Assembly: GCA_028280415.1 (NCBI GenBank)
Contig: JANQLV010000038.1
Span: 1-64,000, forward strand
DNA: 64,000 nucleotides
Reading direction: 5' to 3'
Source: Saprospiraceae bacterium
GTDB lineage: Bacteria; Bacteroidota; Bacteroidia; Chitinophagales; Saprospiraceae
Shown: in pieces, positions 218 through 21,356 of the stretch
Numbering within the stretch: position 1 is the stretch's first letter
Layout of the letters: every line of letters starts with the position of its first letter
Notes under the pieces: generated by a model
The model's input: the letters and a program-made list of their open reading frames with translations, nothing else
Databases searched by the model: none
Told to the model about the DNA's origin: nothing
Translations under genes and position numbers: made by a program

Positions 218-625
218 TTACTCAGATAACAGGTTGTCGAGATAGTCGACAAGAGCCTGTCTTTCCACTTTAAAGTTTGGATAGTCGTTAGTGAATTCAA
301 CTAATCCAGAGCTGTGAATTCTAGGTTTGTATGCAGGAGCATTTTCGTGGATAGCAGCTCCTACCTCATTCCCTTCGTTGATATCTCTCATCACATCGTA
401 GTAGTAACGAAGCTTGAAAGCGATATCTTCACGAGCATTATTTGAAGTAGTATTTGGAATAGCATCTTCCAGTACTTCAATCTCACCCTTCAAAGTGGTG
501 GTTGCTTCATTAACACTCATGTACTGAGCATTAATGCCAGCTAATCCAACAAAGAAGAAAGCAACAGAAAGTACTAGTACTTTTGTCATCTTCCCTGTTT
601 GGAATAGAGAAAGCATTTTTTTCAT
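218..625 (-). CDS. Small secreted protein of unknown function (135 aa)
   Basis: I do not recognise this family. Residues 1-34 form an export signal with a basic start, a hydrophobic core near VLVLSVAFFFVGLAG, and a cut after NAQ. The roughly 100-residue mature part is acidic and probably mostly helical, with heptad-like stretches around TTLKGEIEVLEDAI and VERQALVDYLDNLLSE. There is no Cys, no lipobox and no T9SS C-terminal domain, so it is probably periplasmic or released. Internal ATGs at codons 4 and 13 would still leave a signal peptide. It lies 87 nt before the 1-130 gene on the same strand and is the first gene after the promoter at 1261-1306, which implies a leader of about 630 nt. Confidence 0.6.
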   Translation of the reverse strand: MKKMLSLFQTGKMTKVLVLSVAFFFVGLAGINAQYMSVNEATTTLKGEIEVLEDAIPNTTSNNAREDIAFKLRYYYDVMRDINEGNEVGAAIHENAPAYKPRIHSSGLVEFTNDYPNFKVERQALVDYLDNLLSE

Positions 626-1260: not shown

Positions 1261-1306
1261 CAAAGATACAATAATCCTTTTCTATGCCAATACCCCAAAA
1301 TCGGTA
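1261..1306 (-). promoter_or_regulatory. Bacteroidota promoter with TACC-N8-GGTA palindrome
   Basis: Read on the minus strand, the -7 box TATCTTTG (1261-1268) is preceded after an 18-nt spacer by TTGG (1287-1290), a good fit to the Bacteroidota primary-sigma pattern. Directly upstream lies the palindrome TACCCCAAAATCGGTA (plus-strand spelling, 1291-1306) followed by an A/T run. The same palindrome at the same distance from a -7 box is found at 2363-2408, 6738-6784 and 16299-16344. Start of transcription is expected near 1254, reading toward the small secreted protein genes. Confidence 0.65.
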
Positions 1307-1796
1307 ATTTTTAATTAATGCTTTTTTATAATACATTTATTTTTTATTAAATTATTTTTATAAAATATCTTAATCAATTATCTATCAATGATTAGTGTTT
1401 TAAACAATAATTTAATATTAAAAAACCCCTCCCTGCTCGAAAGCAATAATCTAACAAGCAGGTGAGGAATCTTCCCATTAACCGACAAATTCTTTTATTG
1501 TTATCAAAGCTTTACCTATATCTTTTTATAAGGTATTGGGGATGTTGTTTTATTGATTATATTTACTCAACAATATTCATGATTTCAAAAATGAAACTAT
1601 CGATAAGCGGGGAGCGTTTTTTGTATCATTAAATAAATAACCAGTCAATTTATTTTTTGCTACTCAAATAATCAACATCAAAATTAGTATATCAATTTAT
1701 CAAGTACAAAGTATTCTGCTATCTCAAAAACAAATTGTTTTGGTTAATTTTTTAATCAGTCAAATATTTAGAAAAATACTGTCCTAATAAAATTTG

Positions 1797-1870
1797 AATA
1801 AAAAGAAAACCCGGTCAAGAAGTGATAATGTAAGTTGGTTAAAATAATATTCAGATCCATCTCCGGGTTT
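1797..1870 (-). terminator. Candidate terminator of a short minus-strand transcript
   Basis: Inverted arms AAACCCGG (1808-1815) and CCGGGTTT (1863-1870) enclose a loop of about 47 nt. Read on the minus strand, the distal arm runs straight into TTTTCTTTTTATTC, a usable U-rich tract. Together with the promoter at 2363-2408 it would bound a transcript of about 560 nt. The long loop makes this a weaker call than the other terminators in the window. Confidence 0.4.
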
Positions 1871-2054
1871 CCATCATAGTATTTGTTTTTGTTATGTAAA
1901 AGATTGGCTCTGTTTTTTAAGACCTTCTCGGGTCGCTTATGCCATAGTTTTTATTTTTGCTTATGAGCACTACACTTTTGACTCCGTCGCATTGTATAGC
2001 TATAAAAAGGTTCCGGGTAGAAATGTTTCCTTTTTATCAATTGACCCTTGCAGA

Positions 2055-2138
2055 TCAGTTTCGCTCTTCGATTACCGCCTGACGGGCATCTCGCAAAACC
2101 ATTAGAATAAAAATAAAAATAAGCGTTTTCAGTATCAT
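2055..2138 (-). CDS. Candidate 27-aa membrane peptide
   Basis: A short frame from ATG at 2138-2136 to TGA at 2057-2055 encodes one hydrophobic segment (MILKTLIFIFILMVL) followed by a charged tail (RDARQAVIEERN). This is the layout of single-pass micropeptides. No family is recognised. Support is positional: it lies about 220 nt downstream of the promoter at 2363-2408 and upstream of the candidate terminator at 1797-1870, in a 2-kb stretch with no other gene. A frame this short arises easily by chance, and the transcript could equally be a small RNA. Confidence 0.25.
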   Translation of the reverse strand: MILKTLIFIFILMVLRDARQAVIEERN

Positions 2139-2362
2139 GGGACTATAGTTTAGCTTGGCTAAAAATGTTTAATAATACCATTGAATTTGTACTATACAAA
2201 TCAATAATGAGTATCTTGAAATTATAAGAGGGATAAAGGAGATAATGATTTAAAGTACTGAAAGTCGGTAGAAAAGAGATTTGGTGGGGTCTTGGTTAAA
2301 TTGTAAGTTTTTCGATTCGTTCCGATACTTTCCTGGCTTTTATTTTATCATTTTTGATAGTA

Positions 2363-2408
2363 TAAATTTACAAACTATTTGACTTCAATGCTTACCCTCA
2401 AAATGGTA
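2363..2408 (-). promoter_or_regulatory. Second promoter-like site with TACC-N8-GGTA palindrome
   Basis: The plus-strand sequence TACCCTCAAAATGGTA (2393-2408), followed by TTTTTC, matches the element at 1291-1306. Thirty bases to its left, the minus strand reads TAAATTTA (2370-2363), one base from TAnnTTTG. There is no TTGG-like -33 box, as expected of an activator-dependent promoter. No annotated gene lies close downstream; only the candidate 27-aa frame does. Confidence 0.45.
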
Positions 2409-2476
2409 TTTTTCAAATAAGTTTATTTTATATTCATATTGATCATGCTTCTACTTTCTTTCTTCATAACAGGGTA

Positions 2477-2511
2477 AGAAGGAAGCCTTCCGGGCGGAAG
2501 GTCGACCTTCT
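2477..2511 (-). terminator. Hairpin after the HYR/dockerin gene
   Basis: Nested inverted repeats lie 74 nt past the stop at 2585: AGAAGG (2477-2482) pairs with CCTTCT (2506-2511), and CCTTCC (2486-2491) pairs with GGAAGG (2496-2501) around GGGC. An alternative fold uses the 14-bp palindrome GAAGGTCGACCTTC. There is only a weak T-rich tract, so it may stabilise the 3' end rather than terminate by itself. Confidence 0.45.
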
Positions 2512-2584
2512 CAATCAAACCCTATTTATAAGAACAAATTACTTCTTCTGTACGAAGTACAATTTCTTGTCATCATGATCAAAT

Positions 2585-5500
2585 TTATTGAACGATTAAC
2601 GATTTCGTCTTCCAGGTTCCATCCGGTAGCATTACATTCAAGAAGTATATACCCGAAGCCGCAAAATCACTTCTATTCAAAATCAATTTATTTGAGCCTG
2701 CATCATAGTTTTGTTCAAATCTATGTACAGTCAATCCTGCTGCATTCACGATACTAATTTCGACTCGCATCGACTGTGGCAAGTAAAAAGGAACAGTTGT
2801 TTGTTCTATAATAGGATTAGGATAATTTTTATATAGCATAAATTGTTCCTTTTCTGCTATTTCTGCCTCATAAATTTCAAAATTAATGCCTAATATTTCC
2901 ATTTGCTCAGAATAAGCCTCGGCTTCAAGCCATTTAGAATCAATATTCAGTGTATTTCGCAATGCTCCCTTATCCTTAGCCAAAAATCGTAGGCTAAACA
3001 GAGGCTCATCCGGATCGCTTATTTCAAGTGTACCTTTGAGCCAGCTCAATGCAATTATCCCCTCTACTGCTCTGTTAAAATTAAAATGCTCCTCTTCAAG
3101 ATTTACAAGGCTATTGGCTGTAAAATCCAGATATTCCAGTTTTTCCGAAACAAAGCTAAATGTCCATTGCAAGCCAAGTATATTCGAAATATCTCTTGCA
3201 TAAATTGGTACTTCCACGATATCGCCTCTTTCAAAATTCTGATCATCAGCTTTCACAGCTAGCTTTTCACCTTCGCTTCGTTCTTCACCGATTGTTTCGC
3301 CATCAAATGTCGAAGGATTGGCATTACCATTAACATCCCCTACTTTTATTGCAATGAAATCGGCATCGATAACATCCTCTTCCAGGTTATTAACTATGAT
3401 GCTTTCCGGAAAACTTGACTGGAACGGATTCGCCGGATCAGGAAAGACATAGGCCGCATCAATGAACCGCCAGGACGTATTACCTGAAAATGAATCATCC
3501 AACTGCAAAATCAGTCTTCTCAACTTCACAATATCAAAAGTCGAAATGCTACCAGAAGCATTGATATCCGCTGCAATCATGCGATAAGGAGAGCTAATCG
3601 GTTGAATATTGAGGATATGCCTTTGCATAAAGACTAAATCAAAAGTTGTGACTCCATTCATATAGTTAATATCTTTTACAGGACGTATTTCATAGTTTTG
3701 ATTCAAGGGCAAATCCGGGATCTCAAAATAGCCCGTCACATCGTTATTCACGGTCAATTCCAGACCACCCGTCACTTCGATATCTACTAATTGAACCGGC
3801 AATCCGTTTTCATTTTCAATAATTCCGGAAATTGCAGCACTTGGTTCATCACAGTTGGATCCATTATTCTGGATATTAATGACGGTATTACAAATAGAAC
3901 TATTTCCAGCTGCATCGATCACCGTCAAACTCAAAGCCTGAGTACCCAAATCGTCGCAAGTAAATATATTCGGACTTACTATGTATTGCAGTTCTTCGGG
4001 ACTTGTACAATTGTCAAAACTCCCCAGGTTTATAAACTCAGGTGCAACTTCCACAATGCCATTTTGACCAATTGTAACATTTACCCCTCCATTGCAAATA
4101 GCTGTTGGAGCTTTGGCATCCACAACTGTGATTACTCTGGAGCATAGCGTAAAATTTCCGCAGCCATCTGTTGCAGTATAATTGATGGTATGTATCCCCG
4201 GAGGATAAAAGCCACTGGCATCCGCGCCATTGCTGCTCGCATAGGGAGAATCATTGGTGATGATTACATTCGGATTGCAATCAGAAGCAATTGGCGAGTC
4301 TAAAATAATGTTTATACCACTGCAATCAGAAGCAAACAGATTGATAGTGGTGTCTGCTGCGCAAGCTAAATCAGGTGCAGTAGAATCTTCTACATCAATA
4401 ATTTGTATATCTGTCCAAAAGCCTTCGCTGGTTCCGGAGTTAGGATCATATGTACACCACTCATATACAGACCAGGTTCTGAAAATTCGATAACAAGATG
4501 GTCCATTACTAATTATCTCGTCATCATAGGTAAAGGAAATACTTTCACAATCAGCATTAACAAAATAAGGTGCTCCGGAAAGTGAAGTATCTATATTTAT
4601 CAAACAATTCGATGTCACAAAATTTTGTGGAAAAACAACGATCAATGGCGTATTATCTTCAAGAAAAATAGTTTGAGTACAGGAGGTCTGATTCCCCGCA
4701 AGATCAATCACTGTCCAGGTCCGTTGAATACTGCCTGCATTACATTCATTCAGGTTTTCAATATCATTATAAAAAAGTGTGTCGATGCTACAATTATCAT
4801 CAACGATTGGAGAGCCTGTAATATCCAAATTTGAAGGGTCTTCGGAGCAAGAGATATAAACATCTGATGGACAGGATATTGCAGGATTCAATTTATCATC
4901 TATAATAGCATAAACCGTACACTCATTATAGTTTCCAGCCTGATCTGTAATCCTTAAGGTAACAGGTACGGGACTATCTCCGATATCCTGACAATCAAAA
5001 GATACATAATTGTTAAAGCCAACACCGTCCCGGCTAACCTCAATAGTTTCAATTCCACAATTATCATGGCTACCGCTATCGAAGCTATTCGCATAGACTA
5101 AAGCAGAGCCAAATACGGATAAATGAACCTGTGTATTAAAGTCACAAACAGGTGTAGGTGGAACATTGTCAACCACAGTAATGGTAGTGGTACAAGTCGA
5201 TGTATTTCCACAATCATCAACAGCGGTATAAGTCACTTCGTGGGTTCCGAGTGGAACATCCAGAAAAGGGCCATAGCCGGTACCAAAGGCCCAGGATGGT
5301 GTAATTGTGACTTCTGAACATTCATCTGTGGCAGTAGTCAATGGAAAGTTAACGGTAGCAGTACATTCATTAACAGCTGTACCGACAGTAAGGTCTGCGG
5401 GGCAATTTATAAGGGGGGCAATATTATCTTCTACATTAATAACCTGCACATTCAACGTAAAATCCCCGGAGCAAAAATCCACCACAGTCCAGGTACGAAG

Positions 5501-6349
5501 AACGCGATATGAATTACTTCCACAAAGTGGAACGATTTGATCGGAGTGAGAAATAATCAACTCACAAAAACCGGCATTATCCAGTTCTACCCCCTCTATG
5601 TAAGGCTCGCCGGTAAGTGATAAATCCGTAGGATCCTGGCCGCAATTCAGCGCAGGAGTAACAAAGCCGTCGAGATGTGCAGGAAACATCACATCGTCGA
5701 TGGTTACTCTTTTCAGATAAATCATCTGAATACAAGAAGCTACATTGCCACTCTCATCCTGAACTGACCAAGTTCGCTGAATTTGAGCGGTAATAGTATC
5801 TGATCCTTGTACCGTAAAGCAGCCAAGATCCATGAATTCATCAACATATGTCAAATCAGTATTTGCAAACACCGAACAATTATCCGTGGCCAACGGATAA
5901 CCGGTAACGGATGGATCTACTGATTGATTACATAAAACAGAGGTGTCAGAGCAAGTGAGTTGAGGACTTATATAATCTCCGACATTTATTGAAGTCTGGC
6001 AGAAATTGCCATTACTCGTTTGTGTTACGGTTGCAGTCATAGTGAGTCCGACATGTGCACAAGTCAGAACATTGCCTACAGAATTACCCTCCGGATCGGT
6101 AATATCAACGGTAAAATTATTAGGGTCGCAGGCGGAGTCTTCCAACAAGATAGAAGGTGTAATAATTGCTTGGCCGGAAAGGTCCAGAGAGACATTTAAG
6201 CTGCCTTTACAGATAATCACACAGGCAAAAGCATTAATGGAAAGTAATAGAAAGGAAGAGACCAAAACAGCGAGCAGGCTGCTGATTTTTTTGAAGTCGG
6301 TTCTGAACGAACAGATTTTTATCCATGTAGATGGAATAAATCTCATCAA
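2585..6349 (-). CDS. Giant HYR-repeat protein with dockerin, cohesin and T9SS domains
   Basis: A 1254-aa protein expected at the cell surface. An N-terminal signal segment ends near SINAFA (about residue 42). About eight HYR/Ig-like modules follow, marked by recurring DNCS, RTWTV and GNxTxCT signatures. From about 838 there is a carboxypeptidase-regulatory-like fold. Next are two dockerin-like halves (about 891-913, with NGVTTFDLVFMQRHIL; 927-951, with ADINASGSISTFDIVKLRR), a WRF motif and the GDVNG box. Residues 1024-1165 form a cohesin-like beta-sandwich, and 1166-1254 a T9SS type A sorting domain with YPNP at 1176-1179. In the second dockerin half some calcium-ligand positions are Ser rather than Asp. 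The same tail occurs on the haem peroxidase at 35381-38281. Partner and substrate are unknown. Confidence 0.85.
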   Translation of the reverse strand: MMRFIPSTWIKICSFRTDFKKISSLLAVLVSSFLLLSINAFACVIICKGSLNVSLDLSGQAIITPSILLEDSACDPNNFTVDITDPEGNSVGNVLTCAHVGLTMTATVTQTSNGNFCQTSINVGDYISPQLTCSDTSVLCNQSVDPSVTGYPLATDNCSVFANTDLTYVDEFMDLGCFTVQGSDTITAQIQRTWSVQDESGNVASCIQMIYLKRVTIDDVMFPAHLDGFVTPALNCGQDPTDLSLTGEPYIEGVELDNAGFCELIISHSDQIVPLCGSNSYRVLRTWTVVDFCSGDFTLNVQVINVEDNIAPLINCPADLTVGTAVNECTATVNFPLTTATDECSEVTITPSWAFGTGYGPFLDVPLGTHEVTYTAVDDCGNTSTCTTTITVVDNVPPTPVCDFNTQVHLSVFGSALVYANSFDSGSHDNCGIETIEVSRDGVGFNNYVSFDCQDIGDSPVPVTLRITDQAGNYNECTVYAIIDDKLNPAISCPSDVYISCSEDPSNLDITGSPIVDDNCSIDTLFYNDIENLNECNAGSIQRTWTVIDLAGNQTSCTQTIFLEDNTPLIVVFPQNFVTSNCLINIDTSLSGAPYFVNADCESISFTYDDEIISNGPSCYRIFRTWSVYEWCTYDPNSGTSEGFWTDIQIIDVEDSTAPDLACAADTTINLFASDCSGINIILDSPIASDCNPNVIITNDSPYASSNGADASGFYPPGIHTINYTATDGCGNFTLCSRVITVVDAKAPTAICNGGVNVTIGQNGIVEVAPEFINLGSFDNCTSPEELQYIVSPNIFTCDDLGTQALSLTVIDAAGNSSICNTVINIQNNGSNCDEPSAAISGIIENENGLPVQLVDIEVTGGLELTVNNDVTGYFEIPDLPLNQNYEIRPVKDINYMNGVTTFDLVFMQRHILNIQPISSPYRMIAADINASGSISTFDIVKLRRLILQLDDSFSGNTSWRFIDAAYVFPDPANPFQSSFPESIIVNNLEEDVIDADFIAIKVGDVNGNANPSTFDGETIGEERSEGEKLAVKADDQNFERGDIVEVPIYARDISNILGLQWTFSFVSEKLEYLDFTANSLVNLEEEHFNFNRAVEGIIALSWLKGTLEISDPDEPLFSLRFLAKDKGALRNTLNIDSKWLEAEAYSEQMEILGINFEIYEAEIAEKEQFMLYKNYPNPIIEQTTVPFYLPQSMRVEISIVNAAGLTVHRFEQNYDAGSNKLILNRSDFAASGIYFLNVMLPDGTWKTKSLIVQ

Positions 6350-6737
6350 ATTGTTTTGGTCTATGCTAAAAAGCCTTTACTACGTCCAATTAGGTGCAGC
6401 AAAGCAGTTTAGCATTCAGTTAAAAAAGAATGTTTCCCTGAAGTGTCGTTCAGATAGTGAAGTGTTGTTTGATTTGTGTTTTAAAAAGCAATTTCCTCAT
6501 TTTGCTTTCAGTGTTGAAGCGAATTGGTCGATTCACTTCTGCCAGTTGGTTTGTGGCGTTCAATTTTTTGAACTTCTCAAATCGATTTAGGATCGATTGC
6601 AATTTTTTAGGAGGATGGTTTTGGTCGTAAGTTGTGGGAGGGATTTTTTGTAAGTTTTGTAAGTCTTGGCACGCTTGTTGTAAGTTTGTAAGTGTAAAGT
6701 TTTAGCTTGCCGTTTTGTACGTTTCCTAAGTACATTT

Positions 6738-6784
6738 CAAAGATAACTACTCTATACGCTTTCCACCATACCCACTTAAAGGTA
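6738..6784 (-). promoter_or_regulatory. Promoter-like site with TACC-N8-GGTA, HYR/dockerin gene
   Basis: On the minus strand the -7 box TATCTTTG (6745-6738) lies 31 bp from the palindrome TACCCACTTAAAGGTA (6769-6784, plus spelling), which is followed by TTTT. The -33 position reads GTGG, a weak match. Transcription would begin near 6731 and enter the HYR/dockerin gene at 6349. Confidence 0.6.
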
Positions 6785-6970
6785 TTTTACTAATATAAAA
6801 AATAATAAATTTATATTCAACTGTTAATCAATCATTAAAAACAATAAATCAAGCAATTAAATCTATCCTTTTATTATTTTTTTCTTCTTTTCCAGTAATA
6901 AAAAATCACGTTTTGCAACGTTTTTATTTTTCTATAAATAAATCAGAAAAAATCACCAAAAAAAGACCTT

Positions 6971-6986
6971 TGGCATACTAATTGCA
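6971..6986 (+). promoter_or_regulatory. Possible sigma-54 promoter
   Basis: TGGCAT-ACTAA-TTGCA keeps the GG and GC dinucleotides 12 positions apart, as in -24/-12 promoters (consensus TGGCAC-N5-TTGCA). No gene follows on the plus strand before the convergent PorP/SprF gene, so the product would be a non-coding or antisense transcript. One match of this quality can occur by chance. Confidence 0.25.
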
Positions 6987-7595
6987 CCCTCATTATTGTA
7001 AGTTTTTAGTACGTTTCCTAAGTACACCACTCTTTCCACACTATATAATAATTTACCTAATTATTTTGCTGTTTGTGATTCGATCTTAGTTTTCGATTTT
7101 AGATGTATATATGATTCTAAAACCGGGAGGTAGCGCAAAACTGTCATTACCCTGCTATCAGTCTTCTCTTAGTTAATAGTCTTGTCAATCATTAAGCTAG
7201 ACTTTAGCATATTACAATGCTACTTTCTTTTTCATTGAAAAATGATCTTGTGGTAATAACTCTCAGAAGTTAGTAAAAGAGGCGGGAGCAGCTGCCGGCC
7301 TTTGAGCGCGCGCCTTTATTGGGTCCAGGCTTTTATCTGCTCGTATCTTTATTCAAGACAAATTTTTAAGCGAAATGATGAAGTCGCGTTAAGAAGGCAT
7401 ATAATATACAAACATCCAGTCCAAAATTTAACTTTGACACCGGCCATTTGGGTTTGCACTTGATTCCTCTAAAAGAGAAACGGAATAAATATTGTAATTT
7501 CAGCTATATAAAGTAGAGAAGCCCCCCTCTAACAAGTGTAGAGAGAGGCCATCCCAAAAACCAATTGATAAAGGACTTCTTTCGTATCTTTTAGA

Positions 7596-7633
7596 GTACT
7601 TCTCTGCTTTTCTTTTAATAAACAGTGAAGTAC
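7596..7633 (-). terminator. Hairpin following the PorP/SprF gene
   Basis: The arms GTACTTCTCTG (7596-7606) and CAGTGAAGTAC (7623-7633) are complementary except for one position, and lie about 10 nt past the stop of the PorP/SprF gene. There is no good U tract, so termination is uncertain. Confidence 0.35.
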
Positions 7634-7643
7634 CTTCTATTTT

Positions 7644-8582
7644 TTATTTTCTGTACTTCATAGAGCGATCATACTTCCCTTTATTTCTGTTGAATTCAAA
7701 ATTGATCGTTATCTCGTGTGAGCCGCCATTATAGTTTTGAAATTCATCCATAAAAACATCGTAAGTATAAACAAACTGAAGTGTATTGTATTTCGTACCA
7801 AGGATAATCCCGAGGTTTCCTCCCGTACCGGCTCTATAGGTTAGCCCCGTCAATAATTGTTCTTTTAGAAAAGAAGCAACCAGGTTGACATCTGTCTGGA
7901 AATCAACACCTCTTACTCTTTTAAATAGAAGTGAGGGCATTAATTTAACTTTGGACTCAGCCAAATCGAATTTTCCACCGACATTAGCCGTCAAAAATTG
8001 AAAAGGTCCACCATCTCCATTTCCGGAAATTTGATCCAATTTTCCACGTACCAAGCCAGGAGAACTCAAACCAAAGAAGATGCGATCCTGATAACTACCA
8101 TAGATACCAAGCGTAGCATCAAATTCTGTTTCCCCATCAAGAGCGGCCATAACGATCTCATCATCCATATCAAAAAGAAAACTATTGGTTACAGAATTAT
8201 CAATGGAAGTTGTGTGCCACTCTGTCGACAATCCGAAGGCCATGTCAAAGTCGTTAATTTCATATTGAAAAGCATAAGATAACTGACCACGGAAGCGCGT
8301 CAAGCCCGCAATATTCTCCGTATAGATCATTCCGCCTATGCCTAATCTTTTTCCTATAGGGCCATTATAACTCAAAGCATAAGTTTTAGGCGTTTCCGGA
8401 AAATTTGTCCAGGCCGAACGGATATTGATAAAAACGTTGTGATGATCCCTATCAAAACCGGTTGCTGCCGGATTGATCAAAGTAGGATTGAAAATGTAAT
8501 GCATAAAGACAGCTTCTTCCTGAGCCAGGGCTGAGTTAGTGAAGAAAGCGATAATTGCGAATATGAATATTAATTTTTTCAT
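7644..8582 (-). CDS. PorP/SprF family T9SS outer-membrane protein
   Basis: A 312-aa protein with a signal peptide ending near NSALAQ, followed by the conserved PorP/SprF opening (FMHYIFNPTLINPAATGFD) and alternating strands of an outer-membrane barrel through the C terminus. Known members work with T9SS cargo that carries a gliding-motility-associated (type B) C-terminal domain, helping its secretion or surface attachment. That fits here: the gene starts 33 nt after the giant SprB-repeat gene, which ends in such a domain, so the two are probably co-transcribed and specific partners. The length is normal for the family. Confidence 0.9.
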   Translation of the reverse strand: MKKLIFIFAIIAFFTNSALAQEEAVFMHYIFNPTLINPAATGFDRDHHNVFINIRSAWTNFPETPKTYALSYNGPIGKRLGIGGMIYTENIAGLTRFRGQLSYAFQYEINDFDMAFGLSTEWHTTSIDNSVTNSFLFDMDDEIVMAALDGETEFDATLGIYGSYQDRIFFGLSSPGLVRGKLDQISGNGDGGPFQFLTANVGGKFDLAESKVKLMPSLLFKRVRGVDFQTDVNLVASFLKEQLLTGLTYRAGTGGNLGIILGTKYNTLQFVYTYDVFMDEFQNYNGGSHEITINFEFNRNKGKYDRSMKYRK

Positions 8583-8615
8583 TTTAATTTCCTTTAAATG
8601 TTTTTGGGAATAAGA

Positions 8616-11600
8616 TTAATTTTCTCCTCTTAATAAAGTGAAAGCTCCTTTGAGTACTTTTTGCTGACCATTGTCATCATACTCAAGTACCCAGAAGTAG
8701 CCACTCTCAGGTAGCAAATCTCCATCCTGATCTGTTCCCGCCCAGGTATTATCATAGTTATTGACCTGGTAGACCATTTGTCCCCAGCGGTTAAAGATTT
8801 TCAGAGTGTTATTCAATCCCTCAACACATCGTATGATCAGCTCATCATTTTTACCATCATTATTAGGAGAAATTACTTTTCTTGCTTCCAGACACTCTCC
8901 TCCCGGCACTAGTTCAATGGTAGAAATGTCCGTACATCCATTATCATCTTCGACGATCAAGCCATACGTTCCGGCATTCAAACCATCCACTGTAGGAGTT
9001 ATATCAGCATTATCTGTGTTCCAGAGATACGTATAAGGCTGAGTTCCACCAGTGACTTCTGCCTGAACAAGTCCGTTGGCAGGTCCTGTAGGATTTGTCC
9101 CAATAATATTGATAGCCAATACATCAGGTTGAACAAGATCAACACAGGTGTTCACGGAAAGGCCGGCGATATTGTTATCATCGACCGTTACGCAGTATGT
9201 TCCTGCTTCTAATTCGAAAGCAAGCTCGCCAGACTGGCCATGATCCCAGGTAATGCTATAATCACCCGATCCCGAGCCGGATATCAGTACTTCAATTTGA
9301 CCATCTGCATCTCCATTACAGCTAGGTTCTGTAAATACAAAATCTAAAGTAATTCTATCGGCCTCTAATTCAACCGTGATCACCTCGACACAACCATTGG
9401 CATCCACAACCGTAGCGGTGTAGAAACCTTCTACCAAACCACCAATGATCGCTCCGGTCATACCATTCGACCAAGTTATGTCATCGGGGTTCACTCCCCA
9501 GCCTCCAGAAATATCCAATTCAATTAAACCATTCGCTTCATCGGCAGTTGGATTGTTGGTATTTCCTACTTCTACGGATAAAGCGGAAGCAGGACTTTCT
9601 ACGGTAATGGTAGCGTTCGCGGTAAGTCCGTTATTATCGGTTACCTGGACAGTATAAACACCAGCACAAAGGCCAGTGACATCCTGGGAAGTCATTCCTC
9701 CCGGACTCCAGGCATAAGAATAAGGTGCCATTCCACCAAATACCTGAATATCGATGCTTCCATTACAATCTCCGAAACAGCTTACATCATTCACTTCAAC
9801 GACCTCGATACTTAAACCAAGATCGATCTCTATTTCCTCAGACACTGAGGTACAGCCATTGGCATCGGTAATAGTTACAGTATATGGGCTCAAATCTTCA
9901 CAGAGTTCAGAAATGTCTTCACTTGTATCGCCATTACTCCACTCATAATCATAACCGCCGGTTCCACCAACAACCGTTATATTAATTGCTCCGGTACAAT
10001 TCGTACCGGTAGGATCAGTATTATCAATGACATTATTTACAGTAATTGTGATTGGGCTCGGTTCTGTGATAGTAAAAGGATGTACCAAGACCATTTGAGG
10101 GCTTCCTGAATCCTGAATAACAATGGAATAGTTTCCTACTGACAGCCCGTCAAAACAAACATTTTCTCCGGATACACTGGTTTGTTCATCTCCGTTTAAT
10201 GTGAGTGTATAAGGTCCACATCCTCCCAATACAGAAACACAGATTTGCCCATCATTTCCACCACTACAGGAAACCATTGTCATCTGGTCATTCGCTACCA
10301 CCAATGGTGGAGGCGACACAGTAAAATCAGAAGTAAGAATACAACCATTGGCATCTGTAATCGTCACGGAATAATCCCCTTTACAAAGATCAACCGGGTC
10401 TTCATTTGTAGCCCCATTACTCCAATTATAAGTATAGGGTAAAGTCCCTCCGGTGATACTGATATTGATAGAACCATTACAACCATCTCCCGATTCATCC
10501 TGAATATCACTTCCGGCGATCGTTAGTGCAGTTGGTGTACCAACGGTAAAGTTCTGCGTAGCCAAGCTACCGTTTGAGTCAGCAACAGTCACGCTATAAG
10601 CACCCGCACAAAGGCCAGTTTGATCCTCAACACCATTCGTTACACCACTTCCGGCCCAGGTATAGGTATAAGGCGCAATTCCACCATTCACACTAAGATT
10701 AATTTCACCATCGCAGATACCTGCACAGGAAACATCCGAAACATCCGCAGTAAGTACGATAATACCCCCTACTTTGATAGAATCCCTCACTTCACAAGCA
10801 TTGGCATCCGTTACCGTTACCGCATAACATCCCGAAGCAAGCCCGCTAAGGTCCTGAGAAGTCGCTCCATTACTCCAGTTGTAGGTATAATTCGGTGTAC
10901 CACCATTAACAGTAAGATCAATTGCGCCGTCATCATTCGATGCTGAAGCATTTGTAACCGTATTGGAAATACTTAATGCTGCCGGTTGAGTAACAGCAAT
11001 CGGCCCTTCTACAATAGTACATCCAGCAACATCTGTAATAGTTACATTATAAGTTCCTGCCGGAACATTATTATGGTTTGGTTGATTTGGAAGTGAAGGA
11101 CTCCAGTTGTAGTTATATCCCGGAACACCACCTGATACATTTAAAGTAATCGTCCCGTCTGCTTCTCCATTACAACTTACTGAAGTTGAAGAACTAGAAG
11201 CAGTGATTGCCGGAGGTTCGGAAAGCGTAACTGTCGGTCCAACTATCGTACATCCGTTTTCATCGGTAACAGTTACCGTATAAGTTCCTGCCGTCAAGCC
11301 GGTTAAATCCTCCAGGGTAGATATTCCCCAATCATAATCATAAGGAGTAGTTCCACCCGTTACATTAATATCGATTGCTCCCGTAGCGTCACCATTACAA
11401 TTAATATTAGTTGATGATACAATTGCTACATCCAAAGCATCCGGTTGAGTAATTGTTACTGTCGTTCCTACTGCTGTACAGCTATTATTATCGGTAACAG
11501 TTACCGTATAAGTCCCTGCAGGAAGATTAGATGGATCTTCGTTGGTACCTCCTGCACCCCAGTCGTAGCTATAAGGCGCGTTTCCTCCAGAAACGCTTAT

Positions 11601-14600
11601 ATTGATCGATCCTGTGGCCTCACCATTACAGAGTATATTATTTTGTCCATCAATTACAATTGATATGGCCGTAGCCTCACTGATTGTAATCGTTTCTACC
11701 GCAGTAGTTCCAATATCATCAGTAACCGTAACAGTATAATTACCGGCAACTTTTCCGGAAATATCCTGAGAAGTTTCACCATCAGGACTCCAATTGTAGG
11801 TATAAGGCGTAACACCACCGGCAACTGATATATCAATCGCACCGGTTGCCTCACCATTACAAAGTACATTGGTAACATTTTCAACCGTAATAACCGGTGC
11901 ATCAAACTCGTTAACAGTAAAAGTCTCAACAACGGTACAACTATTTGCATCCGTAACCGTCACGGTATAATCTCCCGGAGCAAGACTGGTAACAGTTGCG
12001 CCATTACCAACATTCGGACTCCATTGATAAGTATAACCTGCAGTTCCACCGGAAGGTGTTACTGTAATTTCTCCATTTTCAGCACCTACGCCAGATTCAT
12101 GCGTTACATCGCCAGAAACAGTTAGCGGATCAGGCTCACTTACAAAAGTAGTTCCTGTCTCCGTACATCCCTGAACATCTGTAACGGTAACGGTATATTG
12201 ACCAGCTGCAAGATCAGTAATTGTCTGGGTAGTTCCTCCTCCCGGACTCCATTCGTAAGTATAACTTCCATTTCCACCGCCAGGTGTAGCCGTGGCTGTA
12301 CCATCATTAGCACCATTACAGGTTACATTATCATCAGTAACATCCACCGTCAATGGGGCCGGTTCGTTTATAGTAACAGAACTAGTAGCAGTAACACCTG
12401 TATTATCTGTAATGGTTACACTATAGGTTCCGCCACTTAAGTTAGTAATGGTAGCACCTGAACCAACATTCGGACTCCAGTTGTAGCTATATGGTTCATC
12501 TCCACCGGTAGGAGTAACCGTTACTTCTCCATCATTCGCTCCATTACAACTTACATTCGTTCCCACAATGGTCGTGCTTATTGCATTGGGTTCATTTACA
12601 TCAACCTGATCTGTAACCGTACATCCCTCAGCATCAGTTACCGTAACCATATAGGTTCCTGCTGAAAGATTGGTAATCGTCTGAGTCGTTCCTCCTCCCG
12701 GACTCCAGCTATAATTATAAGGAGAAGTACCTCCGGAAGGCGTAGCCGTAGCCTCGCCATCACTTCCTCCATTGGTAGTAGCATCCATTGAAGACATCGC
12801 AACTGTTAATACATCCGGTTCGGTAACCGTATAAGTTTCGATAAGGGTCGTATTATCATCGGTAATAGTGACGGTATAATCACCAGCCGGAAGATTGTTC
12901 AAATCCTGGGAAGTTTCACTATTACTCCAATTATAGGTAACTGTACCGACTGAATTGGATATCGTAATATCGATTGCCCCATCAGTAGCTCCGTTGCAGG
13001 ATACATTTGTGATAAGCGTATCAGAAACTTCCATGGGCGCTCCCATACTACAGTCGACAGTGATGCCTCCATCATTTACCATATTAGGTATTGCATTGTT
13101 CCCATCGGTAATCTCAATAATGGATGTTTGATCAAAAAATACCGGGACAACTTCCCCGTCGCCCGCTAAAATTTCGAAGCATAAACTAACAAGAGTATCT
13201 CCATTAGCAAGCGTTTGTGGCTCCAGATTGAGTTCAAACCAGGAATGTCTGATTTCTCCGGCATTAAGCAGGTTGAAGTCATTGGCATCCAAACCGCTAA
13301 TGCTAAAGTCCTGAGTACGAACAAATCGCAAATCCATACTATCCCATCTCATATCAAAAAGCATACTGACAACGCCATTATAATTAAGAGTCGTTATCGG
13401 TATACAGACCGTATCTCCGGTACATCCGCTTATTTGGTTAATAGTGAGTTCCAGGAGCCCATCCCCGGTAACGTTGACCAGGCCAGGAATTTTAGCCAGC
13501 GGAACCAGCTCTAATTGCCCATTTATAGCTTGAGAAACTTCAATTGGCGTAGGATCACTGGTAAAATCTACAACACTCTCGTCTCCGGCTTCTCCAATCA
13601 CAATATATCTTATGCTAAAAATAATGACATCATCGTTTACTGATGCACCCTGAGCATCGGGATCTTCCCAGCTAAAGGTCAATTTTCCTGCATCCGTTAA
13701 CGTTGAAGAAGTGTTAAAATTGGGACTACCCGGAAGATTGCCGGATGATTCTACATCAAAAAAGCTGACTATAGCCGGATCCCAAAGCATGCTTCCCTGA
13801 AGACTGGCTATGGAATCGAAATTCCTAACACTGATATCTATAGTCACGGTATCTCCCATTCCACCTTGTGCCTGGCTGGCAAGAATGGTCACTGCACTTC
13901 CGGAATTACCGGTAATTCTCACTTCGCCATCAACACTTTCCAAGCCTATATTTCCTCCCCCCGAATTTGCATCAGTAACTTCTATTGGTGCTAAAGCATC
14001 ATTAATCATTACTGTATCAACCTCTCCACCTGCTCCAATAGCCGTAAAACAAATAGAGTATAATACCGTTTCATCCGGTACGGTCACTCCTGATCCCAGA
14101 GAATCAAACCAGGAAAGCGTAATAAAGCCGTTACCAGCATTAGTGGTACCAAAAGCTCCCGCCTCCAGATTCTGCAGATTAAAATTTTCTACATTATTAA
14201 ATTGAAGTGTAGTAGGATCAAATTGCATCGTGTATTGCATACTAACAATCTGATCAAAATTACAAGCCGCTACATCCAGACATACATTATTTCCGGTTGC
14301 AGCAGAGTCGCTGGTTACAGTCAGCCCAAAACCCGAAAAATCACAAGTAGGGCCTCCTCCGACATTCCCTCCGGCAACATCAATAGTCGTATTATTGAAA
14401 GTTGTGGAGCCTGTAATATCCGTCAGCCCTCCCTGATCAGCAATAATTTCAAAGAATAAAGGATTCTCCGAAAATTGAATCTCAGTGGAAGTAGCGCCTG
14501 AAGCTACTACATCAAAGGTAATCGTAAATAGGACTGAACCATCTGTGAGAGACTGTGTCCCCCCATCCGGGTCCCACCAGGAAGTTGTCAGAATTCCCTG

Positions 14601-14876
14601 ATTGATTTGCGTTTGTCCAAAATTACCTCCGCTGGTCAATCCCGGCAAGCCAAAATTAGATACCCCCTGGTAATCGAGGTTAGTTTCATTCCAATTGATA
14701 GAATACTGGTAACTGGCAATATCCGTAAAGCCGTTTACCACAACATCAACTGTAATCGTCTCACCCAAATCGGGCATAGAATTGGAAGGTACAAACGTAA
14801 AAGAAAGTTGTGCATTGGCAGTAAAGGCTAAAAAGACCATACCTATGACCGCCAGAAAAGTGTTAAATTTACTCAT
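8616..14876 (-). CDS. Giant adhesin: four cohesins, about 18 SprB repeats, CHU_C end
   Basis: A 2086-aa T9SS-secreted surface protein. Signal peptide 1-23. Four cohesin-like domains follow at about 25-168, 182-323, 327-470 and 473-609, each with a G(D/E)T(I/V) opening, a (I/V)xSxQ or MQ strand and SW(W/F/E) near the middle. From about 621 to 1990 there are about 18 SprB-type repeats averaging 76 residues, with the signatures SCNGxxDG, GGxxPYxYxWS and AGxYTVTVTD. The end (1992-2086) is a gliding-motility-associated C-terminal domain (SPNNDGKND, IFNRWG). SprB-like proteins act as filamentous adhesins or gliding adhesins; the N-terminal cohesin block is an unusual addition and could display four docking sites at the filament tip. 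The gene is second in a probable operon, 36 nt after the small cohesin protein and 33 nt before PorP/SprF. Confidence 0.9.
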   Translation of the reverse strand: MSKFNTFLAVIGMVFLAFTANAQLSFTFVPSNSMPDLGETITVDVVVNGFTDIASYQYSINWNETNLDYQGVSNFGLPGLTSGGNFGQTQINQGILTTSWWDPDGGTQSLTDGSVLFTITFDVVASGATSTEIQFSENPLFFEIIADQGGLTDITGSTTFNNTTIDVAGGNVGGGPTCDFSGFGLTVTSDSAATGNNVCLDVAACNFDQIVSMQYTMQFDPTTLQFNNVENFNLQNLEAGAFGTTNAGNGFITLSWFDSLGSGVTVPDETVLYSICFTAIGAGGEVDTVMINDALAPIEVTDANSGGGNIGLESVDGEVRITGNSGSAVTILASQAQGGMGDTVTIDISVRNFDSIASLQGSMLWDPAIVSFFDVESSGNLPGSPNFNTSSTLTDAGKLTFSWEDPDAQGASVNDDVIIFSIRYIVIGEAGDESVVDFTSDPTPIEVSQAINGQLELVPLAKIPGLVNVTGDGLLELTINQISGCTGDTVCIPITTLNYNGVVSMLFDMRWDSMDLRFVRTQDFSISGLDANDFNLLNAGEIRHSWFELNLEPQTLANGDTLVSLCFEILAGDGEVVPVFFDQTSIIEITDGNNAIPNMVNDGGITVDCSMGAPMEVSDTLITNVSCNGATDGAIDITISNSVGTVTYNWSNSETSQDLNNLPAGDYTVTITDDNTTLIETYTVTEPDVLTVAMSSMDATTNGGSDGEATATPSGGTSPYNYSWSPGGGTTQTITNLSAGTYMVTVTDAEGCTVTDQVDVNEPNAISTTIVGTNVSCNGANDGEVTVTPTGGDEPYSYNWSPNVGSGATITNLSGGTYSVTITDNTGVTATSSVTINEPAPLTVDVTDDNVTCNGANDGTATATPGGGNGSYTYEWSPGGGTTQTITDLAAGQYTVTVTDVQGCTETGTTFVSEPDPLTVSGDVTHESGVGAENGEITVTPSGGTAGYTYQWSPNVGNGATVTSLAPGDYTVTVTDANSCTVVETFTVNEFDAPVITVENVTNVLCNGEATGAIDISVAGGVTPYTYNWSPDGETSQDISGKVAGNYTVTVTDDIGTTAVETITISEATAISIVIDGQNNILCNGEATGSINISVSGGNAPYSYDWGAGGTNEDPSNLPAGTYTVTVTDNNSCTAVGTTVTITQPDALDVAIVSSTNINCNGDATGAIDINVTGGTTPYDYDWGISTLEDLTGLTAGTYTVTVTDENGCTIVGPTVTLSEPPAITASSSSTSVSCNGEADGTITLNVSGGVPGYNYNWSPSLPNQPNHNNVPAGTYNVTITDVAGCTIVEGPIAVTQPAALSISNTVTNASASNDDGAIDLTVNGGTPNYTYNWSNGATSQDLSGLASGCYAVTVTDANACEVRDSIKVGGIIVLTADVSDVSCAGICDGEINLSVNGGIAPYTYTWAGSGVTNGVEDQTGLCAGAYSVTVADSNGSLATQNFTVGTPTALTIAGSDIQDESGDGCNGSINISITGGTLPYTYNWSNGATNEDPVDLCKGDYSVTITDANGCILTSDFTVSPPPLVVANDQMTMVSCSGGNDGQICVSVLGGCGPYTLTLNGDEQTSVSGENVCFDGLSVGNYSIVIQDSGSPQMVLVHPFTITEPSPITITVNNVIDNTDPTGTNCTGAINITVVGGTGGYDYEWSNGDTSEDISELCEDLSPYTVTITDANGCTSVSEEIEIDLGLSIEVVEVNDVSCFGDCNGSIDIQVFGGMAPYSYAWSPGGMTSQDVTGLCAGVYTVQVTDNNGLTANATITVESPASALSVEVGNTNNPTADEANGLIELDISGGWGVNPDDITWSNGMTGAIIGGLVEGFYTATVVDANGCVEVITVELEADRITLDFVFTEPSCNGDADGQIEVLISGSGSGDYSITWDHGQSGELAFELEAGTYCVTVDDNNIAGLSVNTCVDLVQPDVLAINIIGTNPTGPANGLVQAEVTGGTQPYTYLWNTDNADITPTVDGLNAGTYGLIVEDDNGCTDISTIELVPGGECLEARKVISPNNDGKNDELIIRCVEGLNNTLKIFNRWGQMVYQVNNYDNTWAGTDQDGDLLPESGYFWVLEYDDNGQQKVLKGAFTLLRGEN

Positions 14877-14912
14877 CTGTCCTTGGAATTTGGGATGTTA
14901 GAAAAAGCATTT

Positions 14913-15707
14913 TTACTCTCTAACTAAAATCATCCTGTTAGTTATAAAAAAATCTTTGGTTTTCAATTTATAGATATATGTACCTACAGCAGGTAATTTA
15001 TCCTGATATATTATAATCGAATAAGTACCCTGAGTGTAGAAATTCGATTCTTCATATATTATAGCGCCCTTTAAATCATATATTTCAAAAACATAATCCG
15101 ATGCTTCGTGTATGTCGAAGCGTATAACTGTTTTATTATCAAATGGATTAGGTTCATTTTGGTATAATGTAAAAGCAGCATTTGATTGTATCCGAAGATC
15201 CTGAACACTATTGGGGTTAAGCATGGTCACGGTACCACTGTGAATAGTAGCATTTATAGTCTGACTATTGGCATTCACGAATTCGATTGGTGTCGGTGAG
15301 CCAGTAATTTCTATGACAGAACTCTCTCCAGAACCAGCAAGCGGTGTGAAATAGACATCAAAAATCGATGTGCTATCCATCAAATCAACCCCTTCCAGGC
15401 TCATATCTACCCAAACAGTAGTTAATGCTCCCTGGCTGGCATTATTCGTTCCGAAATTAGAAGCTCCATAATTAGGCAAGGCATTTGTGTTAGCGACTAC
15501 GCTATCAAATTGCAAAAAATCGGCATCCCAGTTTACAGAAAACTGCATACCAATGATTTTTTCCTCAAAACCAGTGACATTTACGCTCACGACGATTTGT
15601 TCATCCGGTTCTGCGGAAGCATTGCTTACAAAAATGGTAGGTTGTGCCAATGAAGGCACAACGAACCACAAAAGCAAAGCAAAATATAACAGTACTCGTT
15701 TTGTCAT
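14913..15707 (-). CDS. Cohesin-domain protein with T9SS type A sorting domain
   Basis: A 264-aa exported protein. The first ATG is at 15707-15705; a TTG nine bases upstream is possible but less likely. The signal peptide ends in VPSLAQ. Residues of about 22-165 form one cohesin-like domain closely resembling those of the downstream giant protein (VVSVNVTGFEEKIIGMQFSV, then TTVWVDMS). The C-terminal 85 or so residues form a T9SS sorting domain (YQNEPNPFDNKTVIRF). It is effectively a single cohesin on a secretion tag and opens the operon that continues with the giant cohesin/SprB protein and PorP/SprF. A dockerin-bearing partner is conceivable in the gene at 2585-6349. No catalytic domain is present. 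Confidence 0.85.
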   Translation of the reverse strand: MTKRVLLYFALLLWFVVPSLAQPTIFVSNASAEPDEQIVVSVNVTGFEEKIIGMQFSVNWDADFLQFDSVVANTNALPNYGASNFGTNNASQGALTTVWVDMSLEGVDLMDSTSIFDVYFTPLAGSGESSVIEITGSPTPIEFVNANSQTINATIHSGTVTMLNPNSVQDLRIQSNAAFTLYQNEPNPFDNKTVIRFDIHEASDYVFEIYDLKGAIIYEESNFYTQGTYSIIIYQDKLPAVGTYIYKLKTKDFFITNRMILVRE

Positions 15708-16298
15708 CTTAATCAATTGGTTATAATAATTTTATAGTCCTTTGGCAATTCAATATACACTAAAAGTACGTGTATCTGCGACATTAATAATCGAAGGGAT
15801 GTTTTCTCCTGCGCACTTTTACGAGCTTTAGCGAGGGAGCAGTAGTCGTAAAAATCAATCCAAGATTTTTTAGAGAATTGAGTAGATTGGTACACAAAAA
15901 TGTCGTACAAACCCACTTCCGTTGAGAAATGTTGTTCGTTTCCTTCATGAGATTATAAATGTCGTATCTTTTAATAATCTGCTCCTAATTATGGCAGAGC
16001 AGATAATGTAAAAATCATACAATGTTGTGATTTCCAGTCCACTTAATCTTTTGCAAAATGCAAACTTCTTCATCGCTCAATTATGCATAGCATACATTGA
16101 ATAAGAGGCAATTAATTGGTTGTTCTGAAAATTTACCCACCAAGACAACAATCAGGGGAGAAAGCTTTTAAAGAATCAGGCTATCGGATTAGTGCCTGGA
16201 AAAAAGCTCTTTAGGATAAGATTTCAGTTCAAGGGATTTATCTGTATCTAAATGCTTAATTTCGGTTTTGGAAATCGTTTTATTTAGTTTTGATATTG
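15708..16298 (-). other. Leader region of the cohesin operon
   Basis: This holds about 590 nt with no credible gene. It would be the untranslated leader if transcription starts at the promoter at 16299-16344. It includes a hairpin with perfect 8-bp arms, ATCTGCTC (15977-15984) and GAGCAGAT (15997-16004). A 67-codon frame at 15713-15916 starts only with GTG and has no recognisable features. Confidence 0.35.
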
Positions 16299-16344
16299 CA
16301 AAGATAGCAGATAATAATTTGCAGAATGTACCCAAAAACTGGTA
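16299..16344 (-). promoter_or_regulatory. Promoter-like site with TACC-N8-GGTA, cohesin operon
   Basis: On the minus strand, TATCTTTG (16306-16299) lies exactly 30 bp from the palindrome TACCCAAAAACTGGTA (16329-16344, plus spelling), which is followed by TTTTTC. The -33 position is poor, which suggests activator dependence. The downstream genes are the cohesin protein, the giant cohesin/SprB protein and PorP/SprF. Confidence 0.6.
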
Positions 16345-16438: not shown

Positions 16439-17104
16439 TTATATCAAGCTATGATCATAAGCGATTTTGATCAGTCCTGCAGTGTTACTTACACCTAATT
16501 TTCGCATGATATTTTTCCGGTGCACACTTACGGTCTGATCACTGATATAAAGTTCCTTAGCAATCTCCTTGTTGCTCAGAGCATGAGAGATTAATCGAAG
16601 GATTTCAATCTCTCTTTTAGTAAGGTTGTATTTCTTGATAAACCGGTCTTCAAACTGGATAGCATTATCACTTTTCCGTCCTCCGGTAGCAAAAGCATTA
16701 AGGCTAACGCCCTGCCCCATAAAAGTATGTCCTTCAAGTACCTCCGTGATCGCTCTAACCAGTTCTTCCTTTCCTGAGCTTTTGAGTACATAACCATCGA
16801 CTCCGGATTTGAAGGCTGATTTCACAATTTTAGATTCATCGTACATCGTCAGCGCAAGAATTCTTAGATCGTTGTATTTATGACCAATAGATGAGAGTAC
16901 ATCAAGACCATCTCTTTCCGGCATATTGAGATCAAGAATCAATAAATCAGGAATATTCTTTTTCAAAATATTCATCAATTCATCTCCTGTATTTGCAATA
17001 TCAACCAAATTAATATCGTAGCCATCGACATCTTGCAATATGGTCTTTAAGCCAGTAATAAAAAGTTGATGGTCATCTGCAATTACTACGTTAACTTGCT
17101 GCAT
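16439..17104 (-). CDS. NarL/FixJ-type response regulator
   Basis: A 221-aa two-component response regulator. Residues 1-125 form the receiver domain with the acidic pair ADD (10-11 region), phospho-acceptor Asp58 in LILDLNMPERDG, the switch Thr in ALTMYD, and Lys in VLKSSGKEE. Residues of about 155-218 form a LuxR-type helix-turn-helix (LTKREIEILRLI, NKEIAKELYISDQTV, HRKNIMRKLGV). Such proteins bind DNA as dimers when phosphorylated. No histidine kinase lies in the window, so its input is unknown. The gene ends just upstream of the cohesin operon promoter, whose 16-bp palindrome has the 7-2-7 half-site spacing used by NarL; control of that promoter is inference. Confidence 0.9.
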   Translation of the reverse strand: MQQVNVVIADDHQLFITGLKTILQDVDGYDINLVDIANTGDELMNILKKNIPDLLILDLNMPERDGLDVLSSIGHKYNDLRILALTMYDESKIVKSAFKSGVDGYVLKSSGKEELVRAITEVLEGHTFMGQGVSLNAFATGGRKSDNAIQFEDRFIKKYNLTKREIEILRLISHALSNKEIAKELYISDQTVSVHRKNIMRKLGVSNTAGLIKIAYDHSLI

Positions 17105-17804: not shown

Positions 17805-19013
17805 CTAGTGCCGGAAGGAAGTCAAAAACTGCTCGATCAAACGTGTGTTCTTAACAATGATATCTCCACTTCCAGATAAATTTTCCTCAAAATCAATTTC
17901 CTTTTTATAGCTTGTAATGAGCCTTGCGGGCAGTTGTGCTTCGGCAACATAAGCAATCTCACTATCACTATTCGTTCGTTTGATCTTGTGTATCGTTCCT
18001 TCTAAAATACCGAATTCCATCTCCGGGTAATTATCCAGGCGCACCTGAACTTTTTGATTCAAAGCAACTTTTCCGGAATTCACCAGGGGAATCTGCATAC
18101 GCGCAATATAGCGGGCCCGTTGGGGAGGCTTAATTTTTAGATAGCTCATCGGTTGATGGACAATTTCCACTTTTCCTTCCAGAGCAGCACGCACTACATT
18201 TTTTTCATCCCATGCCTCGATGGCCATTTTCATTTGCTGATAATCTTCAATGAGCTTACGGAAATAATGGACCCGATCATCTGGTATTACAGTATTTCCT
18301 GCGTACGAATCGGTTTTAGATGCAGCCATTTCGTTTTTGTTATTCTGATAAAGTCGATAACTATCCTCAAAACGAGCGAATTCATCCTGTACCTCTCCCA
18401 AAGAAAGCACCGATAGTTCAGAAAAAGGGAATTCAAAGGTTCTGGAATTAAGTTTTAAAGTATCGGTAATGGATTTCAGCAGGAACATATCGCTATACAC
18501 TGCATCTGTCTCTTTGACCATCAGGGGGCTATTGTGCCGTACATCAGTGCCCGTAGCCACCAATAAGTGTTCATATTTCAGAAAGTAGTCCGAGTCGAGG
18601 TATTGTGCCGGGAATTCGTTTACCAGTTGCACATTAGTAGAAACTATCTGTGGATAGCGAACCATCCAGGCAATAGCCAGTAATAATAGAATTAAAGCGC
18701 AAAACAGTGTATTCCCCCATCGTATCATCCAGTTTGGTACGGCCGTCAGGATTTCCTGAACATTCTCTTCCCTGAGCTGTATCTCCGAATTATCTCCAGC
18801 ATCGGCTGGCTGTATCATTATCACCTGATCCGTAGTAGAAGGGCTCAAAGGTATGGGCCCATCCTCTTTATTAATTTCAAGATGATCGGGTTTGATATTC
18901 ATCACCCCTTTGATTTTGATTACCTGCCCGTCAGGTAGTGTAATCGTCTGAGCCTTATTTTTATCATCAGGTTGCAGCTCCGCAGGTTTAGCTTTTTTAT
19001 TTTTGTTTTCCAT
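17805..19013 (-). CDS. HlyD-like membrane-fusion protein of the peptide exporter
   Basis: A 402-aa periplasmic adaptor. It has a cytosolic N-terminal tail of about 105 residues, one membrane helix (LFCALILLLLAIAWMV), then a periplasmic part with a predicted helical hairpin (around EVQDEFARFEDSYRLYQNNK) and beta-barrel strands typical of HlyD secretion proteins (KVEIVHQ, VRLDNYPEMEFGILEG). It starts 6 nt after the ABC transporter stop, so it is translationally close to it. It should connect the inner-membrane peptidase-exporter to the outer membrane for release of the mature peptides. No TolC-like partner is encoded here. The long cytosolic tail is longer than usual for HlyD. Confidence 0.85.
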   Translation of the reverse strand: MENKNKKAKPAELQPDDKNKAQTITLPDGQVIKIKGVMNIKPDHLEINKEDGPIPLSPSTTDQVIMIQPADAGDNSEIQLREENVQEILTAVPNWMIRWGNTLFCALILLLLAIAWMVRYPQIVSTNVQLVNEFPAQYLDSDYFLKYEHLLVATGTDVRHNSPLMVKETDAVYSDMFLLKSITDTLKLNSRTFEFPFSELSVLSLGEVQDEFARFEDSYRLYQNNKNEMAASKTDSYAGNTVIPDDRVHYFRKLIEDYQQMKMAIEAWDEKNVVRAALEGKVEIVHQPMSYLKIKPPQRARYIARMQIPLVNSGKVALNQKVQVRLDNYPEMEFGILEGTIHKIKRTNSDSEIAYVAEAQLPARLITSYKKEIDFEENLSGSGDIIVKNTRLIEQFLTSFRH

Positions 19014-19019
19014 GATATT

Positions 19020-21266: not shown

Positions 21267-21292
21267 AGTGATAGTTTTATAGCTTGTGAAGA

Positions 21293-21354
21293 AATTCGTT
21301 GTTCGATTTTCGTTGTTCGAAATTCGTGATTCGATGTCCGATTTTCGATTTTAA
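21293..21354. repeat. TTCG-rich short repeats between gwsS and the exporter gene
   Basis: A 60-bp intergenic stretch is built of imperfect units around GTTGTTCGATTTTC / GTTGTTCGAAATTC, then GATTCGATG and CCGATTTTCGATTTT. Related ATTCG-rich sequence appears near 2300, 7080, 42972-43027 and 46670. Such short simple units are typical low-complexity intergenic repeats; no role is apparent. Confidence 0.4.
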
Positions 21355-21356
21355 GT

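Follow-up and report, generated by a model that had tools for sequence, protein, structure and literature searches.

A NarL-type response regulator and a rigidly spaced palindrome as the probable basis of a surface-protein regulon in Saprospiraceae

Activation by LuxR in Vibrio fischeri proceeds from a box centred at −42.5, where a dimer of GerE-type helix-turn-helix (HTH) domains sits at the −35 element; LuxR does not belong to the response regulators, and the lux box is 20 bp long. Among response regulators with a similar HTH domain, NarL of E. coli prefers inverted heptamers separated by a 2-bp gap, as in the engineered high-affinity site TACCCCTAAAGGGGTA, activates when bound at about −40 to −49, and acts as both activator and repressor (PMC4549865). 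Two-component control of type IX secretion (T9SS) has been described in Porphyromonas gingivalis, where PorX showed no binding to the target promoters and acts via the ECF sigma factor SigP, the targets being the secretion machine (PMC4800418). Promoters of Bacteroides follow a consensus with a −7 TAnnTTTG and a −33 TTG/TTTG element (PMC7366714).

The window analysed here, the whole stretch of 64,000 nucleotides, comes from a member of the Saprospiraceae, a little-studied bacterial family. The first-pass annotation had reported palindromes at 1291, 2393, 6769 and 16329, each 30–31 bp from a −7 box, and all four are present in the window sequence. The motif had been written as a minus-strand TACCC-N7-GGTA followed by an A/T run; that reading belongs to the plus strand, and in the promoter sense, which is indeed minus, the sites are AAAAA-TACC-N7-GGGTA. 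The distance is correct when counted from the palindrome centre; measured between GGTA and the −7 box, the gap comes to 23 bp at 6769 and to 22 bp at the other three sites. A TTG at −33 occurs at 1291 alone, in keeping with the poor −33 boxes claimed for three of the four sites.

All features of these promoters lie on the minus strand. The operator of the cohesin operon, TACCAGTTTTTGGGTA (16329..16344), is conserved in genomes G001 and G003, and its −7 box, TATCTTTG, is at 16299..16306 (gap 22). The same box follows the other two strict sites: at 6738..6745 (gap 23) after the HYR/dockerin operator TACCTTTAAGTGGGTA (6769..6784), which has an orthologous site and a 74% identical leader in G001 (L119), and at 1261..1268 (gap 22) after the small-protein operator TACCGATTTTGGGGTA (1291..1306), for which there is a related locus in G003 (L116). 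The fourth operator, TACCATTTTGAGGGTA (2393..2408), stands ahead of a stretch without a large gene, has an orthologue in G003, and is followed by TAAATTTA (2363..2370, gap 22), which departs from TAnnTTTG. The three strict sites fall within the first 16.4 kb, and TACC-N8-GGTA at 806 and 57470 in the window lacks promoter spacing to a −7 box. A stretch, TACGTTTCCTAAGTACA, found just after the 6769 promoter (6718–6735) is repeated some 290 bp further upstream, at 7009–7025.

The palindrome is not a signal by itself. Across the 7.1-Mb genome, bare TACC-N8-GGTA shows no enrichment (131 sites against 127 in the reversed control), and the palindrome alone was ruled out on this count. When it is paired with TAnnTTTG at a gap of 10–40 bp, 17 genome matches remain against 4 in the reversed control, and in 13 of these 17 the gap is exactly 22 (nine matches) or 23 (four), for which p = 6e-13 if gaps are supposed to be uniformly distributed. 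With open reading frames called mechanically, none of the 13 correctly spaced sites lies inside a frame of more than 90 aa, and three of the four off-spacing matches lie inside frames of 193–790 aa. The reported pattern is confirmed at a level far above chance. Among the Saprospiraceae matches listed, 59 of 114 have a gap of 22 or 23 (p ~2e-39, a value too small given the kinship of the genomes), as do 10 of 36 listed matches from other families of the order. The window palindromes are probably genuine control sites, members of a genome-wide set of about 14 promoters. Looser patterns were less useful: TACCNNTTTNNGGGTA with one mismatch is a weak search pattern (70 against 50 in the control), and one-mismatch promoter scans are at background level beyond TTTG boxes. 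Near-identical copies of one site (TACCCAAAAAAGGGTATAAGTATCCC...) occur at C122:1894-1940 and C170:16158-16204 of G026, a genome of a different genus, and suggest duplicated promoters.

The site at 2393 requires separate comment. Because of its TTTA box it fails the strict pattern and counts as a one-mismatch match, and in the genome such matches do not exceed the control (5 against 7). It is accepted nonetheless because it is conserved in the sister species G003, where TACCATATTAGGGGTA-N22-TAATTTTA, upstream of that species' own small-protein site, keeps the palindrome, the 22-bp gap and the TAnnTTTA box. The stretch that follows had been called empty. The predicted transcript may hold a 27-aa hydrophobic open reading frame, MILKTLIFIFILMVLRDARQAVIEERN, at approximately 2059..2142 (−), beginning at the leader element TCCCATGATACTGAAA; the counterpart read from the sequences of G003 is MILKTLIFIFLVMTLHDMGKGYSKE. 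Since a short hydrophobic frame starts (MILKTLIFIF...) downstream of the site in both species, the stretch is perhaps not empty. A tblastn search of it with the known targets gave no decayed gene.

The first gene of the cohesin operon encodes a cohesin-domain protein with a T9SS C-terminal signal (14913..15716, −; Cohesin 2.1e-9, Por_Secre_tail 3.9e-5). Gene order and strand suggest that it shares a transcript with an SprB-repeat surface adhesin bearing a CHU_C T9SS signal (8616..14876, −; SprB 1.1e-140 in 17 stretches, CHU_C 5e-22) and a PorP/SprF T9SS membrane protein (7644..8582, −; Pfam PorP_SprF 2.1e-44). The 6769 site precedes a HYR/dockerin T9SS-secreted protein (2585..6349, −; HYR 5.6e-12, Por_Secre_tail 5.3e-7, Dockerin_1 3e-4), and the 1291 site a small secreted protein of 135 aa (218..625, −), a paralogue of which, on contig C8, is likewise preceded by a site. 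Beyond the window, sites precede this small-protein paralogue, two more HYR/dockerin T9SS proteins, a second PorP/SprF, a PMP-repeat T9SS protein, a receiver protein heading an exopolysaccharide cluster, a 1491-aa protein and a DUF4856-imelysin operon; one site, on contig C9, has no gene directly after it on that strand. The suggestion that matches across the genome would precede T9SS cargo is borne out for most and does not hold for the receiver/exopolysaccharide and DUF4856-imelysin operons. Many targets are kept together with their site in genomes of the same genus.

Directly upstream of site 16329, its stop codon 94 bp ahead of the operator, lies the gene for a NarL/FixJ-family response regulator (16439..17104, −), which is the proposed activator. 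Pfam identifies a receiver domain (Response_reg 2.7e-24) and a C-terminal HTH (GerE 6.7e-20). The best PDB match is E. coli NarL (8.7e-27), aligned through the recognition helix, and Asp58 aligns with NarL Asp59 in the segment LDLNMP. Of the NarL residues Lys188, Val189 and Lys192, which touch DNA, the first is replaced by serine in the window regulator and the other two are kept; ISDQTVSVHRKNIMRKLGVS, the recognition helix, hardly varies among the orthologues. The operator itself has the NarL 7-2-7 format, with inverted TACC half-sites and 16 bp in total, and several sites, for example TACCCTTTTGAGGGTA, equal the engineered NarL site except at the centre. On the far side of the regulator, window positions 17805-23549 (−) encode a peptidase C39 ABC exporter, a SPASM protein and a RimK-type ATP-grasp enzyme, a row of genes that resembles a cluster for a peptide natural product (RiPP).

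The tie between regulator and site does not depend on this one locus. In 54 of 80 orthologues, from genome records mostly labelled Saprospiraceae, a strict promoter lies on the same strand within 600 bp 3′ of the regulator stop, with a gap of 22 in 42 cases, 23 in 12, and no other; across the same 80, no strict promoter occurs in the upstream 600 bp, inside the gene or on the opposite strand. Bare palindromes show the same asymmetry (54 downstream against 6 upstream). Regulator and site occur together also in a cultured relative, Phaeodactylibacter xiamenensis (locus L291). An overlapping genome set gives an adjoining promoter for 21 of the 30 best orthologues. Over 100 genomes of the family, the number of gap-22 sites rises with the identity of the best regulator orthologue (Spearman 0.65), the mean being 3.0 at identities of at least 48% (n = 34) and 1.0 and 0.6 below. 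Exceptions are G013 (87% complete), which has five gap-22 sites and in which no good orthologue was found, and the orthologues at L191–L194 and L199–L201, which have no adjoining site. With the 16-bp format, the NarL-family gene beside 16329 and the conserved pairing, the earlier guess of a NarL-type regulator is well founded, and the roughly 14 promoters are very probably controlled by the DNA-binding regulator whose gene adjoins one of them. In this genome the regulator gene has no strict site ahead of it; autoregulation is thus not indicated. The first gene after regulator-linked sites carries Cohesin in 18, Por_Secre_tail in 18 and HYR in 9 of 48 cases, counts in which many reading frames are cut by the ends of the loci. 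Since one regulator is tied to a shared target list, the cohesin, dockerin and SprB proteins under this putative shared control are candidate parts of a single surface assembly.

The same operator is found throughout the Bacteroidia with a gap of 23 and the sequence GGTATTG (loci L143–L182). The 31 genes directly 3′ of these sites, from 40 loci, include DUF4856 (10), TonB plug (5), HmuY (2), imelysin (1) and FeoA (1) families, which suggest an iron role; no published iron operator of this form was found in the literature. At two of the loci (L152, L161) the interval between −33 and −7 includes TTTAGAATnATTCTAAA or a similar sequence that resembles a Fur box. In six (L143, L145, L148, L150, L151, L164) a NarL-type regulator lies 2–488 bp upstream, and these six, with a regulator of the present genome on contig C81 (near 28294), form one clade, distinct from that of the window regulator.

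It might therefore be proposed that the operator is read mainly by this paralogous, iron-gene type of regulator, the window regulator being only one user or neighbour. The proposal draws on the regulators lying immediately upstream of several gap-23 sites before DUF4856/imelysin, HmuY, TonB-receptor and FeoA genes, on the two clades being separate and well supported, and on the identical operator of the DUF4856 site in the present genome. It is nevertheless improbable: the Saprospiraceae sites adjoin orthologues of the window regulator, have mostly a gap of 22 rather than 23, lack TTG, and vary in number with the window regulator. Because the paralogous clade apparently uses the same operator, single sites are not assignable to one regulator with certainty, and the DUF4856-imelysin site of this genome (L017) probably belongs to the contig C81 paralogue.

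The architecture of the promoters bears on what the window regulator, as the favoured reader of the sites, would do there. The −7 TAnnTTTG of the Bacteroidota sigma-A type is present at its fixed gap of 22 or 23, and TTG at −33 is found in 30 of 40 class-wide sites, 1 of 13 sites in the present genome and 0 of 48 regulator-linked sites. The absence of the −33 element from regulator-linked promoters points to class II type activation in its place, and together with the rigid spacing it supports the claim that these promoters are activator-dependent. Repression is the natural counter-proposal, since the palindrome overlaps the −33 position, where a bound protein would block polymerase, and NarL itself works in both senses (PMC4549865). 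There is, however, only a small chance that it is correct: promoters working unaided would not be expected to lack TTG in every one of 48 cases, nor to hold the palindrome at so rigid a spacing to the −7 box. That a Crp/Fnr-family activator binds the palindrome, as its geometry (16-bp dyads centred near −41.5 are typical of Crp class II promoters) and A-rich flanks would allow, is very unlikely, since the TACC half-site is that of NarL and not of Crp or Fnr, and the idea, raised by the iron targets, was dropped once the site-tied genes in two independent clades proved to encode LuxR/NarL regulators.

The sites, their spacing and conservation, the regulator–site linkage and the target families were computed directly, and they favour the following scheme. 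In response to some signal, a histidine kinase would phosphorylate the regulator at Asp58, and a dimer of the phosphorylated form would bind the 7-2-7 palindrome TACCnnTTTnnGGGTA. With the palindrome centre 30–31 bp upstream of where the −7 box begins, binding would be centred near −41 to −42 if that box is centred on −7 (PMC7366714), and would cover the position at which the −33 element is missing. The bound regulator would then activate in the class II manner by recruiting sigma-A RNA polymerase, and the regulon of about 14 promoters would turn on a cell-surface programme comprising the cohesin–SprB adhesin–PorP/SprF operon, three HYR/dockerin T9SS cargo proteins, small secreted proteins and the exopolysaccharide cluster. 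It is thus quite likely that the four window sites are operators of regulator 16439-17104 and serve class II activation of a surface-protein regulon.

The leaders of these transcripts may add a further layer of control. At regulator-linked sites, 243–968 nt (median 527) separate the −7 box from the start codon, and many leaders contain a conserved element, ATCCCATGAACT, 55–190 nt past the −7 box. In the window it appears as TCCCTTGAACTGAAA (16222..16236, −) and again at 2127-2142 (−); elsewhere it is found at L060:7523 and in the leaders of L213–L291. The exact element occurs four times in four genomes of the same genus, and each copy follows such a promoter at a distance of up to about 200 bp. 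One reading makes it the 5′ arm of a long-range RNA stem, another the start of a very short leader reading frame (M N stop, or MNYKxYT...). The candidate stem has seven pairs, two of them with changes on both sides, but in rows that are near relatives, and arms such as CTGAAAT...ATTTCAG, CTGCGAT...ATCGCAG and GAACTACA...TGTAGTTC. Comparison of window positions 1–24000 with Rfam families gave nothing credible.

A tentative history, somewhat less likely to be right than wrong, would join these observations. An ancestral NarL-type regulator and operator for iron uptake in the Bacteroidia may have undergone duplication in Saprospiraceae, where one copy exchanged the 23-bp gap and −33 TTG for a gap of mostly 22 bp without TTG and was rewired to serve as an activator-only system for a T9SS-exported cohesin–dockerin/HYR/SprB assembly, with further control by RNA or leader peptides in the long leaders.

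The open-access literature yielded no description of a regulator for cohesin/dockerin or HYR-type T9SS cargo in Saprospiraceae. Here sequence alone links a single response regulator to a regulon that is compact and conserved and whose operator, spacing and targets can be stated exactly, and TACC-N8-GGTA-N22/23-TAnnTTTG provides a search pattern that predicts NarL-type regulons across Bacteroidia, likely including iron genes. The predicted GerE-type HTH dimer over the −35 region recalls LuxR of Vibrio fischeri. Like PorXY-SigP, the present system would place T9SS-related genes of a bacterium of the Bacteroidota under two-component control, but its sites use a sigma-A TAnnTTTG, and the published SigP motif differs (PMC4800418). 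There is likeness also to the 7-2-7 regulons of E. coli NarL/NarP (for example napF and yeaR), in regulator family, in the 16-bp TACC...GGTA heptamers with a 2-bp gap and in a position of about −40 to −49 (PMC4549865); the difference lies in the Bacteroidota sigma-A promoter with its −7 TAnnTTTG, in the absence of a known nitrate link, and in targets that are T9SS surface proteins.
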